Virus record (IMG/VR): IMGVR_UViG_3300029286_001111 | Span: 1-21,599 of that record | Direction: 5' to 3' (one strand) | Source of the DNA: a virus | DNA: 21,599 nucleotides | Part shown: positions 1 to 17,197 of the stretch, piece by piece | Layout of the letters: the number at the start of each line of letters is the position of its first letter | Numbering within the stretch: the first letter of the stretch is position 1 | The notes under the pieces: generated by a model | What the model was told of the DNA's origin: nothing | Seen by the model: only the letters and a program-made list of their open reading frames with translations | Databases searched by the model: none | Program-made: the position numbers and the translations under genes

Positions 1-112
1 CAGACAGCCCGGGGCCAACGTGGTCAGACCGGGCAGGTTGAGATCGCCGCCCACGGTCTTCGGCAGACAGCCCGGGGCCAACGTGGTCAGACCGGGCAGG
101 TTGAGATCGCCG
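1..112 (-). repeat. 63-bp in-frame tandem repeat
   Basis: Bases 1-63 are followed by a second copy starting at 64, identical for 49 bases (64-112 match 1-49) before the sequence leaves the repeat. The period of 63 is exactly 21 codons, so copy number can change without a frameshift. The array continues beyond the left edge. Confidence 0.9.
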
Positions 113-390
113 GTGAAATTTTCAGTCTGATTTGTTTCGCGCAAACACCAAGCAAAAAAATCAATAAAATTGGGATACGATTGCCTAATCTTAAATACGC
201 ATTGTTTTTCCTCGCGGTTGTCGGCAGGAAGGACTCTGGCAATTACATCGCTGTCTGGAAGATAATGCCCTTCGCGCCATTTACTTCCGTCGAGTTTTAA
301 AAACTCTTCGGTGTTGCTATGAGAATTTAAGTCGTGGACTTTAATTTCTCCCGTCTTTGGATTATGAAAGAACGATATGAATTGACACAT
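1..390 (-). CDS. Leucine-rich-repeat-like protein, 3' end cut by window edge
   Basis: An open frame runs from ATG at 390 to base 1 without a stop (130 residues seen). A strong ribosome site (GAGGAGG, 8 bases upstream) fixes the start. Residues 1-90 form a globular head (starts MCQFISFFHN; contains DGSKWREGHYLPDSD). From about residue 91 the protein becomes a 21-residue repeat of the form GDLNLPGLTTLAPGCLPKTV. One full and one partial copy are visible, identical at the DNA level over 49 bases. The regular Leu/Pro/Gly pattern resembles the leucine-rich arrays common in Verrucomicrobiota-type genomes and their phages. It lies one base after the end of the ORF at 392-886 and is the last visible gene of the left cassette. 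A binding or adhesion role is inferred; no enzyme motif is seen. The repeat number cannot be judged because the gene leaves the window. Confidence 0.8.
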   Translation of the reverse strand, partial: MCQFISFFHNPKTGEIKVHDLNSHSNTEEFLKLDGSKWREGHYLPDSDVIARVLPADNREEKQCVFKIRQSYPNFIDFFAWCLRETNQTENFTGDLNLPGLTTLAPGCLPKTVGGDLNLPGLTTLAPGCL

Positions 391-391
391 T

Positions 392-886
392 TTATTTTAC
401 CTCCTCGATCTTAATTTTTATGCTCCCGTCTTTTAAATTTCCCCCAAGAGCGCGGAAGGCCGTTGGATTAAATCCACGATCACGCCGTTTTTTCTGGCCT
501 TTTTGCCGGGACCGTAATCCGTGTGGAATAGGACAATCTGCCGCTGTGTCAGTAAATTTGTGATCAGGTATTTTTGCCCCCACGTCCGGCGCCCATTTAC
601 CTTTTGGGGGTGGAACGGGAGCGCACAGGTCAGCGCAGACTCGTCGTATTTTTGCCCGGATGCCGTTAAAACTCCGCTCGTCCCCTCCCTTTGACAACTC
701 TTGACGGTATAATATGTCGCCAATCCCGTTATGCAGGCCGGCGAGGAATATCCAGTTTCGGAAGCGATAATCGGCGTTATTACGCAGGCGCAGATAAAGC
801 AGAGTGTGGTCAATATAGTTTTCATTGATTGTGTCTCCTCTCATGTTCATTGCCTTTCTCATATATTTAACTGTCGAAAATGCCAT
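392..886 (-). CDS. Overlapping ORF that encloses the RlpA-like gene
   Basis: A 164-residue open frame starts at ATG 886 with its own ribosome site (GGAG, 8 bases upstream). It begins one base after the stop of the 61-aa gene and ends one base before the ATG of the repeat protein at 390. The same junction (TAA A ATG) occurs at both ends, so it fits its slot exactly. The RlpA-like gene is fully inside it in a different frame. The N-terminal 65 residues look protein-like (MAFSTVKYMRKAMNMRGDTI onward). The C-terminal part is basic and rich in Pro, Arg and Gly, as shadow frames often are. It may be a real overprinted gene, or its first codons may serve only to couple translation into the RlpA-like start. 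No homology is recognised. Confidence 0.3.
   Translation of the reverse strand: MAFSTVKYMRKAMNMRGDTINENYIDHTLLYLRLRNNADYRFRNWIFLAGLHNGIGDILYRQELSKGGDERSFNGIRAKIRRVCADLCAPVPPPKGKWAPDVGAKIPDHKFTDTAADCPIPHGLRSRQKGQKKRRDRGFNPTAFRALGGNLKDGSIKIKIEEVK
433..825 (-). CDS. RlpA-like double-psi beta-barrel secreted protein
   Basis: This is a 130-residue protein. Residues 1-21 form a signal peptide (MKTILTTLCFICACVITPII-A). The rest matches the RlpA/expansin-type double-psi beta-barrel: TASG at 54-57, YDESALTCALPF at 60-71, a V/I-TNL strand at 88-92, DYGPG at 103-107 and the closing VDLIQRPSALLGEI. In RlpA lytic transglycosylases this fold cleaves denuded peptidoglycan with an Asp in DRGP (here D103) and a His in the LTCAH position. 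Here that position is Leu, with a His six residues further on, so catalysis is uncertain. The ribosome site (GAGGAG, 9 bases upstream) is strong. A role in cell-wall opening or remodelling is inferred. The whole gene lies inside a longer ORF in another frame (392-886). Confidence 0.8.
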   Translation of the reverse strand: MKTILTTLCFICACVITPIIASETGYSSPACITGLATYYTVKSCQREGTSGVLTASGQKYDESALTCALPFHPQKVNGRRTWGQKYLITNLLTQRQIVLFHTDYGPGKKARKNGVIVDLIQRPSALLGEI

Positions 887-887
887 T

Positions 888-1073
888 TTATTCACTCCAT
901 TCTGGCAGGTGAATTTTAGAGATCGTGTCACTAAGTTTTTCTTTTGCGTCGATTAACGCATCGGAAAGGAAACACCAGTCATCACCGGTTTTTTCTGATT
1001 TATCAAGGGAATGATTAACCATGGCTTCTAATCTGTCGGTTATTGTTTTTAATTCATTTAAATATTGCCTCAT
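888..1073 (-). CDS. Small 61-residue protein, unknown function
   Basis: The start is ATG 1073, six bases after an AGGAGA ribosome site. An upstream in-frame ATG at 1121 would run through a terminator hairpin and is rejected. The product (MRQYLNELKTITDRLEAMVN onward) is acidic and mostly helical, with heptad-like Leu/Ile spacing, and ends LPEWSE. No family is recognised. It is the first gene after a hairpin with a U-tract that ends only 18 bases before its ATG. Its expression, and that of the RlpA-like and repeat genes downstream, is therefore probably controlled by read-through of that structure. The stop is followed after one base by the ATG of the next ORF. Confidence 0.7.
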   Translation of the reverse strand: MRQYLNELKTITDRLEAMVNHSLDKSEKTGDDWCFLSDALIDAKEKLSDTISKIHLPEWSE

Positions 1074-1090: not shown

Positions 1091-1132
1091 AAAAAAGGCC
1101 CGCATGATGCTTCTGCACCACGCGAGCCTTTT
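1091..1132 (-). terminator. Strong hairpin terminator in leader of 61-aa gene
   Basis: Bases 1093-1110 and 1115-1132 form an 18-bp stem (with G-U pairs when read on the minus strand) closed by a 4-base loop. On the minus strand the stem is followed by six U, then AUUUU. It could also work on the plus strand (CCTTTT after the stem). The ribosome site of the 61-aa gene starts a few bases after the U-tract, so this looks like an attenuator rather than the end of an operon. Confidence 0.8.
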
Positions 1133-1185
1133 AATTCGCAACCGTTAAACTAAATATATCTTATGTCTATTAACGGTGGTGCAGA
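1112..1185 (-). promoter_or_regulatory. Candidate antiterminator of an attenuation leader
   Basis: On the minus transcript, TCTGCACCAC (1185-1176) is the exact complement of GTGGTGCAGA (1121-1112), which is the upper 5' arm and loop of the terminator at 1091-1132. Between them ACCGTTAA (1177-1170) pairs with TTAACGGT (1148-1141), bringing the two halves together. The alternative fold would break the terminator stem and let transcription continue into the 61-aa gene. The pairing is seen in the sequence; the switching role and any trigger are inferred. Confidence 0.5.
1141..1177. repeat. 8-bp inverted repeat, 21-base spacer
   Basis: ACCGTTAA (1141-1148) and TTAACGGT (1170-1177) are exact inverted repeats around an AT-rich spacer. 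It may be part of the leader RNA fold or a repressor operator. The two readings cannot be told apart from the sequence alone. Confidence 0.5.
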
Positions 1186-1236: not shown

Positions 1237-1335
1237 AAAAAAAACACCCGCCAACGCCTGAAGCCCAGTTGTCCGCGAAGACAGATGGTGCGCTGACGGG
1301 TGAAGGAGTTTTGTTATAGTTTCTGGGCTTCATAT
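1237..1335 (-). ncRNA. Candidate structured small RNA (about 100 nt)
   Basis: A promoter-like pair (1342-1369) is followed by a compact structured segment that ends in eight U (1244-1237). A 13-bp stem pairs 1302-1290 with 1257-1245 (CACCCGTCAGCGC with GCGTTGGCGGGTG; two G-U pairs on the minus strand). A second element, TGAAGCCCAG at 1332-1323, is an exact complement of CTGGGCTTCA at 1268-1259, which lies in the loop of the main stem. The two helices cross, so they form a pseudoknot or compete. A small 4-bp stem (1283-1280/1273-1270) sits in the loop. No known RNA family is recognised. The alternative is a plain terminator for the 216-aa gene, or a first attenuator in front of the next leader. 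Confidence 0.5.
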
Positions 1336-1341
1336 AAACAG

Positions 1342-1369
1342 AATTTAACAGAAAATTAAAATATGTCAA
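1342..1369 (-). promoter_or_regulatory. Promoter of the candidate small RNA
   Basis: TTGACA (1369-1364) is followed after 16 bases by TAAATT (1347-1342), inside the AT-rich stretch just after the stop of the 216-aa gene. The predicted start is near 1335, immediately before the 10-base element that pairs with the terminator loop. The -35 box is consensus; the -10 box matches at four of six positions. Confidence 0.5.
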
Positions 1370-2033: not shown

Positions 2034-2191
2034 TTTTTTTCCTCCTTGTTCCTTAACTCCGTCAGTATCTTCTCCAGCCCTTTTGCAATGGTGATCCCCT
2101 GCCCTTTACACCACGCCGCGAACCATAAACGGAGGGCAACCGGAAACTGAACAATACCCCAGTCAGATGTCCCTTTTGTGTTTGTTTTCAT
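2030..2191 (-). CDS. 53-residue peptide, first gene of the left accessory operon
   Basis: Starts at ATG 2191 behind an AAGGAG ribosome site and ends in a TGA that overlaps the ATG of the 216-aa secreted protein (ATGA). The product is MKTNTKGTSDWGIVQFPVAL followed by a Trp-rich amphipathic segment (RLWFAAWCKGQG) and a charged helical tail ending KEEKK. It is cationic and could associate with membranes, but it has no clear signal peptide. No family is recognised. Confidence comes from the promoter, ribosome site and stop/start coupling. An A8 run at its 3' end spans the junction with the next start. Confidence 0.6.
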   Translation of the reverse strand: MKTNTKGTSDWGIVQFPVALRLWFAAWCKGQGITIAKGLEKILTELRNKEEKK

Positions 2192-2214
2192 ACTCCTTTT
2201 CCTTTCTGAAAATG

Positions 2215-2243
2215 AATATATTAAATAAACCGAATATTGTCAA
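2215..2243 (-). promoter_or_regulatory. Near-consensus sigma-70-type promoter
   Basis: TTGACA (2243-2238), a 17-base spacer and TATATT (2220-2215) lie about 24 bases upstream of the ATG of the 53-aa gene. The expected start is near 2208. A consensus -35 with an ideal spacer points to constitutive transcription, independent of the long late operon to the right. Confidence 0.7.
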
Positions 2244-2250
2244 CAAAAAT

Positions 2251-2367
2251 ATGCAACTATTTAAAGAGGCCATTGTGGGCCATTCCAACCCAGCAATGAC
2301 CCGGCATTATACCCACATCGGGGAACAGGCGGCTATGGATGCCGTCAAGATGTTGCCTGAGATTTAA
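2251..2367 (+). pseudogene. 3' remnant of a tyrosine recombinase/integrase gene
   Basis: The plus-strand frame ending in TAA at 2367 encodes IVGHSNPAMTRHYTHIGEQA followed by AMDAVKMLPEI. This is the C-terminal catalytic end of a tyrosine recombinase: the His of the GH box and the nucleophilic Tyr (in RHYTH) are both present. The arm-binding and core domains and the Arg boxes are missing. Homology starts near base 2263, right after the AT-rich promoter region at 2215-2243. It converges on the late operon from the left, as phage integrase genes often do. The rest was probably removed when the left cassette was joined here. It could also be a remnant from an older element. Confidence 0.7.
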
Positions 2368-2387: not shown

Positions 2388-3035
2388 CTAATATGCCCCG
2401 CGATTGCTCGCATAAGGTTGGGTGGGACATGGCGGAAGATTTGATCCCTTTTTGAAATTATCCACGGCCCATAGGGGCTGTAGATTTGTATAGTGAAAAC
2501 AAACGCGTTACTGTTCCACATCTATAAGGTTAAAAGAAATACAGGGTTGAATATGGTCAATGTGCCAAAGTTTCCTGTTTTTCCAAGTCATACCGGGAAG
2601 AAGTTTTGATTCGATATAAGTTTTTAATTGAAAAAGGGAACATCCAAAAAGATCAAGACTATGTATTGATTTTACGCATCCTTGTTTTTGAAGTGCGGTG
2701 CATAGTTGTATGCGAAGTCTGGAAGTTATGGCAAAAACCGGATCGGTCGCCAGCCGTTTTCTTTTATAAGCATTGACTCGCGAACGATGAGATTTTGCCC
2801 AATCTCTTGCACGTGCACAGTATTTTTGAGGATTTGCAATATAACGCGCCCTTATTATTTCCGGATGGGAAGCTCTCCGCTTCTTTTGATAAATTCTACG
2901 ATATTCACGATTGGTGATAAACCAAGCCTTTGCTTTTTCTGGATTAGCAATCCTCCATGCCTTCATGCGAGCTTTTATTTTTTCGGAATTGGCGGCATAT
3001 CGCATTTTATCATAAGCTATTTTATTAAAACTCAT
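2388..3035 (-). pseudogene. HNH endonuclease gene interrupted by an in-frame ochre stop
   Basis: The frame from ATG 3035 encodes 175 residues: a basic, repetitive DNA-binding N-terminus with YxxNPEK-type repeats, then the HNH core WHIDHIQPCISFNLIDVEQ. A TAA follows at 2510-2508. The same frame then continues with RVCFHYTNLQPLWAVDNFKK and reaches a stop at 2388. Families of this type read DVEQQ..CFHYTNLQPLW without a break, so TAA most likely replaces CAA (Gln). The first part keeps H158, D160 and H161 but lacks the downstream N-x-x-P-L and N residues, so the truncated 175-aa product should be inactive. Other genes here use TAA as a normal stop, so recoding is unlikely. It is probably a decayed free-standing mobile nuclease. 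Confidence 0.8.
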
Positions 3036-14440: not shown

Positions 14441-14899
14441 TTACTCCCCTGTTAAATCTTCCTGAAGTTCGCGTTTCTCCCATGAATCAACGGCATACTT
14501 TTCAAGGTCTTTTGCCATTTGCGATTCAACCCCTCGCACGGCATTATCCGCCCAACCAAGTCCCTCTTTTAAAAGTCCGACATAAGGAACAGCGTTGACG
14601 ATTGTGAAACTCGGATTATCACTTCGCGTCTGGTCATTGCCGGAACCTTCATTCTTGTTCGGCTGGTTTGTATAAATATTTGCGATATTCAACAATGCCG
14701 CCGCCGGCCAGAATCCAGCCCGTAACCGGCCCGAGGCGCCGTAACTGCTGGGAGCTTTTGGCGCGTTCCATGCAAAGCGGCGAATGAGCCGGCGGGCGGT
14801 AGTGCGGACAAACGACGCACCGTTGCGTCCGACAAGTCGAGCAACCTGGCTCATTTGCCGATTAAAATCTTCCAAATCAAATTTTATAATATCAGACAT
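14441..14899 (-). CDS. HK97 gp10-like tail completion/neck protein
   Basis: This 152-residue protein has a basic helical start (LARLVGRNG-like, FVRTTARRLIRRFAWNAPKA at 30-49). An SSYGASGRLRAGFW turn (51-64) and INNxxPYVGLLKEG-type strand (TIVNAVPYVGLLKEG near 98-112) follow. The order 'Pro, Gly-x-Leu-Arg, then N-x-x-PY-x-x-x-x-E-x-G' is the usual layout of the HK97 gp10 family, which closes the head-tail joint. It sits just before the tape measure rather than before the tail tube gene, which is unusual for gp10. Its ATG overlaps the GIY-YIG stop by 8 bases with no clear ribosome site. Confidence 0.6.
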   Translation of the reverse strand: MSDIIKFDLEDFNRQMSQVARLVGRNGASFVRTTARRLIRRFAWNAPKAPSSYGASGRLRAGFWPAAALLNIANIYTNQPNKNEGSGNDQTRSDNPSFTIVNAVPYVGLLKEGLGWADNAVRGVESQMAKDLEKYAVDSWEKRELQEDLTGE

Positions 14900-15599
14900 T
14901 TTGCAACAACTTTCTTCTGTTCCATACCGCCCTTCCTGACAGACTCATTTTTACTCTTGTTTCTGGAGACGCTTTGAGTCCCGTCAGGGACAATGCAATT
15001 TTCCTATTTATTTCAGGCGATCTGTTTCTATTGGCTAATCCGATCTTTCGCCGTGTTTCGACGGACATATTTTGTTTTGCCAAACTCTGTTTTCTCCGAA
15101 CTTCAGGAGGAGTATGCTTTCCTTTATTCCATGGCGCTTTTCCTAGTCGCGCAAGGCTCCATTTTTTTCTAATCTCTGGAGATACAAGATGATGACGACC
15201 TGTATTAAACACCCTTATTTTTTCGCGCCATTCAGGAGTAAAAATACGTCCTTTAAATATTTCGCTTTTTTTTCGACAGGTTTCCGCGGATTGCCTAAAA
15301 CCTGACACCCCCTCGCCGCCTTCAGTCTCGTTAACTAAATTCACACCTTCGTCACGGAAGTATTTTATCCAGGCGATTTCTTCCGGGCCCCCGTCTCCGT
15401 CCGCTTCTCCGATTTCAATGATTGACGGAAGAAAACCACGCACCAACAGAGAACGAATCCAGTTACAACGATGATTTTTGAATCCGCGCCGTGCATCATA
15501 TAAGTGATACCTGAATCTTTTAGAAAGATTTTTTGAAGTCTTTCCGACATATCGGATTCTCCCGTCTTCATCTTGAAGTGCATATATTTTTGTTTTCAT
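14892..15599 (-). CDS. GIY-YIG endonuclease with NUMOD3 repeats
   Basis: The 235-residue protein has an N-terminal GIY-YIG domain: IYALQDEDGRIRYVGKTSKN at 5-24 supplies Y6 and Y17, RFRYH (28-32) gives the catalytic Arg, E73/E74 (GPEEIAW) the metal ligand and N90 the closing Asn. Residues 100-230 hold about five NUMOD3-like DNA-binding repeats (SPEIRKKWSLARLGK, TPPEVRRKQSLAKQ, SPEINRKIALSLTG). This is a free-standing homing endonuclease, which cuts phage genomes lacking it and spreads by repair. Its ATG overlaps the stop of the frameshifted chaperone and its stop overlaps the next ATG, so it fits the operon without breaking a gene. A GAAGG site supports the start. Confidence 0.9.
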   Translation of the reverse strand: MKTKIYALQDEDGRIRYVGKTSKNLSKRFRYHLYDARRGFKNHRCNWIRSLLVRGFLPSIIEIGEADGDGGPEEIAWIKYFRDEGVNLVNETEGGEGVSGFRQSAETCRKKSEIFKGRIFTPEWREKIRVFNTGRHHLVSPEIRKKWSLARLGKAPWNKGKHTPPEVRRKQSLAKQNMSVETRRKIGLANRNRSPEINRKIALSLTGLKASPETRVKMSLSGRAVWNRRKLLQNV

Positions 15600-17156: not shown

Positions 17157-17197
17157 AAAAAAGGCGGCAAATGGTGTTCTGGCACCAGAATGCCGCC
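17157..17197 (-). terminator. Hairpin terminator before the tail tube gene
   Basis: GGCGGCA (17163-17169) pairs with TGCCGCC (17191-17197). Inside, either TGGTG/CACCA or the overlapping TTCTG/CAGAA can pair. On the minus strand the stem runs into six U, then AUUU. It follows the neck genes and leaves about 70 bases before the tail tube ATG. No convincing promoter is seen in those 70 bases. Its inner sequence and tail resemble the terminator at 1091-1132. Confidence 0.75.

Follow-up and report, generated by a model that had tools for sequence, protein, structure and literature searches.

Two tandem terminators with exact upstream complements downstream of a predicted promoter in a tailed-phage record

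The record and the gene neighbourhood

The window, by which we mean the whole stretch of DNA analysed, is a 21.6-kb IMG/VR virus record (IMGVR_UViG_3300029286_001111, 21,599 nucleotides). It is the record of a tailed phage, with a gpA-type terminase large subunit, a terminase small subunit and a ParB-like protein, and a 1075-aa ORF looks like the tape measure gene, judged on length and position. The recognised genes are all on the minus strand. The site of interest sits between a 216-aa ORF (2033-1383) and a 61-aa ORF (ATG 1073), which is followed by a further ORF.

Positions 888-1073, minus strand: 61-aa ORF with an AGGAG Shine-Dalgarno sequence, its ATG 20 nt after terminator 2
Positions 433-825, minus strand: 130-aa ORF, the downstream gene, with a signal-peptide-like start

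The 61-aa ORF has no family match above the Pfam cut-off; no relatives of it were found, and it may not be a gene. The 130-aa ORF looks by eye only like an RlpA-type double-psi barrel, with no match in Pfam or PHROGs. At the record end, a truncated ORF (1-390, minus strand) carries near-identical repeats, GDLNLPGLTTLAPGCLPKTVG. On the opposite strand, a 66-aa ORF (2167-2367, plus strand) looks like the C-terminal part of a tyrosine recombinase, HSNPAMTRHYTH, with a Pfam Phage_integrase E-value of 0.06, and is probably a remnant. An ORF at 14892-15599 (minus strand), flanked by structural genes, resembles by eye a GIY-YIG homing endonuclease.

Among the viral contigs, the terminase has relatives in L003 (82% identical) and L004 (72%), while the genome contigs hold no relative of it. 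L003 carries other genes downstream of its terminase and the 216-aa and 61-aa ORFs have no close relatives in the viral contigs, so that the region has the look of a variable DNA cassette. At the end of L003 (13683-14855) lies what appears by eye to be an integrase.

Promoter and layout of unit 1

The first unit covers about 1335-1237 on the minus strand, with a predicted RNA of about 95-98 nt.

Positions 1342-1369, minus strand: predicted sigma-70-type promoter, TTGACA-16-TAAATT with an extended -10 (consensus scans, 10/12 matches)
Positions 1323-1332, minus strand: 5' element of helix P1, TGAAGCCCAG, a few nt past the expected start and the exact complement of 1268-1259
Positions 1303-1322, minus strand: 20-nt linker with an anti-Shine-Dalgarno-like CUCCUU, 93-98% unpaired in the nested ensemble
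Positions 1290-1302, minus strand: 5' arm of the terminator stem P2, CACCCGTCAGCGC, 13 pairs, two of them G-U
Positions 1271-1282, minus strand: small inner hairpin P3, GTCTTCGCGGAC, within the terminator loop
Positions 1259-1268, minus strand: 3' strand of P1, CTGGGCTTCA, within the terminator loop
Positions 1245-1257, minus strand: 3' arm of the terminator stem P2, GCGTTGGCGGGTG, pairing with 1302-1290
Positions 1237-1244, minus strand: U8 tract, ending the strongest hairpin/T-run in the window

The P1 element and its complement are 54 nt apart, and the latter shares the 32-nt loop of terminator 1 with the P3 hairpin. The elements that an earlier note had read from the letters of this DNA are all in place, namely a consensus -35 (TTGACA at 1369-1364, minus strand), a 13-bp terminator stem with U8 (1302-1290/1257-1245, with the U8 at 1244-1237) and an exact 10-base complement between the 5' end of the RNA and the terminator loop (1332-1323 with 1268-1259); the helices P1 and P2 also cross, as it had described, in the order 5'a-5'b-3'a-3'b. 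An integron attC site was considered and rejected, as the repeats cross rather than nest.

The -10 hexamer TAAATT (1347-1342) lies behind a spacer of 16 with a TG upstream of it, which places the predicted transcription start near 1335, and the promoter lies past the stop codon that ends the 216-aa ORF. The first 5 kb contain no more than three minus-strand matches of at least 10/12, this one included, and ORFs also follow the two others: TTGACA-17-TATATT (2243-2215, minus strand) lies directly before a 53-aa ORF at 2191, and TTGATA-17-TATATT (3070-3042, minus strand) directly before an ORF at 3035 that is HNH-like by eye. The arrangement of these two suggests single-gene cassettes, each with its own promoter. 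Promoter-like matches in the region number 13, mildly above the 8.9 expected by chance (sd 2.9). No minus-strand match of at least 9/12 lies between 1236 and the ATG of the 61-aa ORF at 1073.

The terminator 1 hairpin (-30.0 kcal/mol) ranks first among the 39 runs of at least 6 T in the window, and its fold energy corresponds to z = -2.6. The standard terminator scan accepts loops of 3-8 only and therefore misses this hairpin with its 32-nt loop. A loop complement of at least 10 bases arose in 6 of 20,000 shuffles of the 34 upstream bases and in 3 of 20,000 when 67 bases were shuffled. The whole window holds four exact 10-base inverted repeats with a gap of 30-70, against a shuffle mean of 1.2 (maximum 5 in 40 shuffles), and the arrangement of the P1 repeat is notable, but was chosen post hoc. 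A third strong terminator-like hairpin lies among the structural genes at 17162 (minus strand, -27.7 kcal/mol), with no exact 10-base complement upstream.

A second unit with the same gap

A second unit, absent from the earlier note, begins 51 nt past the U8 tract.

Positions 1176-1185, minus strand: 5' element of unit 2, TCTGCACCAC, exact complement of 1121-1112 across a gap of 54 nt
Positions 1112-1121, minus strand: its complement, GTGGTGCAGA, which takes up most of the terminator 2 loop and extends over part of the 5' arm
Positions 1093-1132, minus strand: intrinsic terminator 2, 18-pair stem, 4-nt loop and U-rich tail, the second strongest in the window

An inner hairpin, CGTTAA/TTAACG, lies between the 5' element and its complement, and no promoter specific to the unit is evident. 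Two of the four repeats counted above adjoin here, one in each unit and both with a gap of 54. Two distinct 10-base repeats within 1074-1382 arose in 1 of 30,000 shuffles and equal gaps in none, in a test devised after the pair had been noticed. Equal gaps could also be a coincidence, as a second gap drawn at random would match in about 1 case in 40.

Search for relatives

No Rfam 15 family reaches the gathering threshold anywhere in the window, and permissive thresholds give no family for unit 1 on the minus strand. A permissive search of 1040-1420 on the minus strand gave its best matches in unit 2, far below threshold (trpB motif, 21.5/59 bits). No homologue of the RNA was found in the viral contigs with three patterns, including one for P2, nor in the genome collection with one strict combined pattern; a negative from strict patterns is hardly informative on distant relatives. 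A blastn comparison with phages and plasmids returned short partial matches only, and E. coli gave none. The viral-contig matches inspected, to the exact P1 pattern (L002, L005) and to a looser pattern of P1 and the T-run (L008, L009, L010, L012 and L013 of the matches L008-L013), lack the terminator stem, appear chance-like and were rejected; the first exact-P1 pattern allowed gaps of 20-50, less than the 54 of the window itself, and is uninformative on close copies. The terminase relative L003 has no match to the RNA and, in the stretches checked, no exact 10-base repeat spaced at around 54, while the silence of L004 means little, as it is a 4-kb fragment.

Predicted folding order

Minimum-energy folds of the nascent RNA of unit 1 show the 10-pair P1 helix at nt 74-86 and the terminator from nt 88. 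For unit 2, the helix that would act as antiterminator is seen up to nt 90 of the folded stretch and the terminator from nt 93. The units differ in how the early helix meets the stem. In unit 2, the alternative helix shares bases with the 5' arm of terminator 2; in unit 1, P1 shares no base with the terminator arms and only crosses them, so that its effect on termination would be steric at best.

By nested folding, which cannot score P1 and P2 together, the terminator of unit 1 alone reaches -30.0 kcal/mol, and the best fold with P1 forced, over a slightly longer stretch, -25.5, which is 4.5 kcal/mol weaker. The two helices could also coexist, and a pseudoknot with linkers of 20, 21 and 1 nt appears sterically possible by our own geometric estimate. 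A pseudoknot is at most possible: nested folding predicts P1 only as a nascent intermediate, and the fold ends as the terminator alone.

Candidate functions of the two units

The predicted promoter at 1369 is followed in tandem by the two terminators that rank highest in the window, and both predicted terminators (1302-1237 and 1132-1093) lie between it and the ATG at 1073. As no promoter match lies between the U8 tract and this ATG, the 61-aa ORF, if expressed, would be reached only through terminator 2, and the polymerase passing that terminator would come from the promoter at 1369 or from further upstream. For this reason an attenuated leader accounts best for the two units together, and we tentatively favour, at somewhat less than even confidence, a leader driven by the promoter at 1369 in which a helix forms early ahead of each of two terminators in tandem. 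The position of a second stop signal directly before a gene suggests an RNA on/off switch, with the 61-aa ORF as the presumed first gene under its control.

What the analysis shows are the sequence elements, how often they arise by chance and the order of folding predicted for them; from these we infer transcription as well as a switch with its signal and targets. Transcription from the promoter would give a 5' leader for the 61-aa ORF and the genes beyond it. In this leader, a 10-base element ahead of each terminator would pair exactly, over 54 nt, with the tip of the hairpin still to be made. The early helix would fold first, during RNA synthesis. In unit 2 it would serve as an antiterminator in direct competition with the 5' arm of terminator 2, and in unit 1 it would lie in the loop next to the 3' arm, where it could either impede the stem or form a pseudoknot with it. 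Where the terminator wins, the product would be RNA1, a short terminated RNA of about 95 nt; otherwise the polymerase would read through. The outcome could be set by elongation speed or by a factor binding the 5' element. Against this leader weigh the lack of any homologue, and hence of covariation, in the collections searched, a 61-aa ORF that may not be a gene, an effect of P1 that would be steric at best, and a second repeat that was noticed post hoc; unit 2 has no evident promoter, and neither a ligand-binding domain nor a leader peptide was recognised. A bolder form of this account, in which two tandem "timed" terminators with fixed 54-nt helices, the first a true pseudoknot, make up an RNA-only antitermination device not in Rfam, seems improbable to us.

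A close rival, accounting for unit 1 about as well as the attenuated leader, is an independent phage sRNA of about 98 nt, in which the 10-pair P1 and the 13-pair P2 form an H-type pseudoknot with the 5' end anchored at the terminator loop. The pseudoknot would guard the end from decay and the linker would offer its CUCCUU to Shine-Dalgarno sequences. This is possible, though we hold it to be on the unlikely side. The unit is intergenic with its own predicted promoter and terminator, its linker is predicted to be 93-98% unpaired, and the estimated geometry would allow the crossing. The linker can pair with the Shine-Dalgarno regions of the 53-aa (-9.2 kcal/mol) and 216-aa (-8.7 kcal/mol) ORFs, but these values are at about the level of the best 5% of random stretches (-9.1), as for any anti-Shine-Dalgarno motif; pairing of the linker to genes of the window was therefore rejected as not above chance, and we claim no trans target. 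The pseudoknot is also beyond the reach of nested folding, no homologue and hence no covariation was found in the collections searched, and unit 2 is left unexplained. The earlier note had argued for an independent RNA. A transcript of about 95 nt is indeed plausible from a promoter downstream of the 216-aa ORF, but its independence is weakened by unit 2, with its equal 54-nt gap and a terminator in the leader of the next ORF, and by a crossing helix that is unproven, as nested folding prefers the terminator alone.

It is rather unlikely that the locus holds just a plain terminator of the 216-aa ORF followed by a second plain terminator, with the promoter and the complementary bases coincidental. 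Both hairpins are good terminators located between ORFs, and the excess of promoter-like matches in the region is mild. However, the rarity of the loop complement (3-6 of 20,000 shuffles) and of two repeats (1 of 30,000) argues against coincidence, as does the ATG with a Shine-Dalgarno sequence 20 nt past terminator 2. A short coding gene is very improbable. It would be a leaderless frame of 39 codons, open from an ATG at 1333, where transcription is predicted to start (peptide MKPRNYNKTPSPVSAPSVFADNWASGVGGCFFSIATFRG), and would be silenced by 5'-3' pairing as in type I toxin mRNAs. Functional metastable folds have been described for such mRNAs (PMC6733600). However, the frame has no Shine-Dalgarno sequence, continues through the terminator and U8 and encodes no membrane-spanning stretch by eye, and about one frame in seven would be open over this length by chance.

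If the attenuated leader is real, it would add a small switch to those of phages: a helix made from the first bases of the RNA would race a terminator, twice in succession and with no large aptamer. Such a device would be readily testable in vitro. A mere terminated sRNA or a pair of terminators would be ordinary.

Comparison with known systems

Long-range pairing between 5' and 3' regions is a feature of type I toxin mRNAs of the hok and aapA1 type. The locus described here resembles them in the predicted pairing of the 5' end with a 3' region and in its predicted temporary nascent structures, whereas a hydrophobic toxin ORF and an antisense RNA were not found here. Metastable folds of type I toxin mRNAs are described in PMC6733600.

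DicF and AsxR are phage- or prophage-encoded base-pairing sRNAs (review PMC12197685). Unit 1 would be similar to these as a small terminated RNA of a phage genome, with a single-stranded run of pyrimidines that could pair with a Shine-Dalgarno sequence. In contrast to them, its own 5' end would pair with the terminator loop and any target is hypothetical, and it has no sequence or Rfam match.

Transcription attenuators and riboswitch-type terminator-antiterminator leaders share with the present locus a leader, putative here, before an ORF, with an intrinsic terminator directly upstream of the Shine-Dalgarno sequence, and their mutually exclusive early helix resembles the one predicted for unit 2. 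Compared with these leaders, there is no known aptamer or leader peptide here; instead, two units follow each other in tandem, the early helix starts at the very 5' element, and in unit 1 it crosses the terminator with no overlap.
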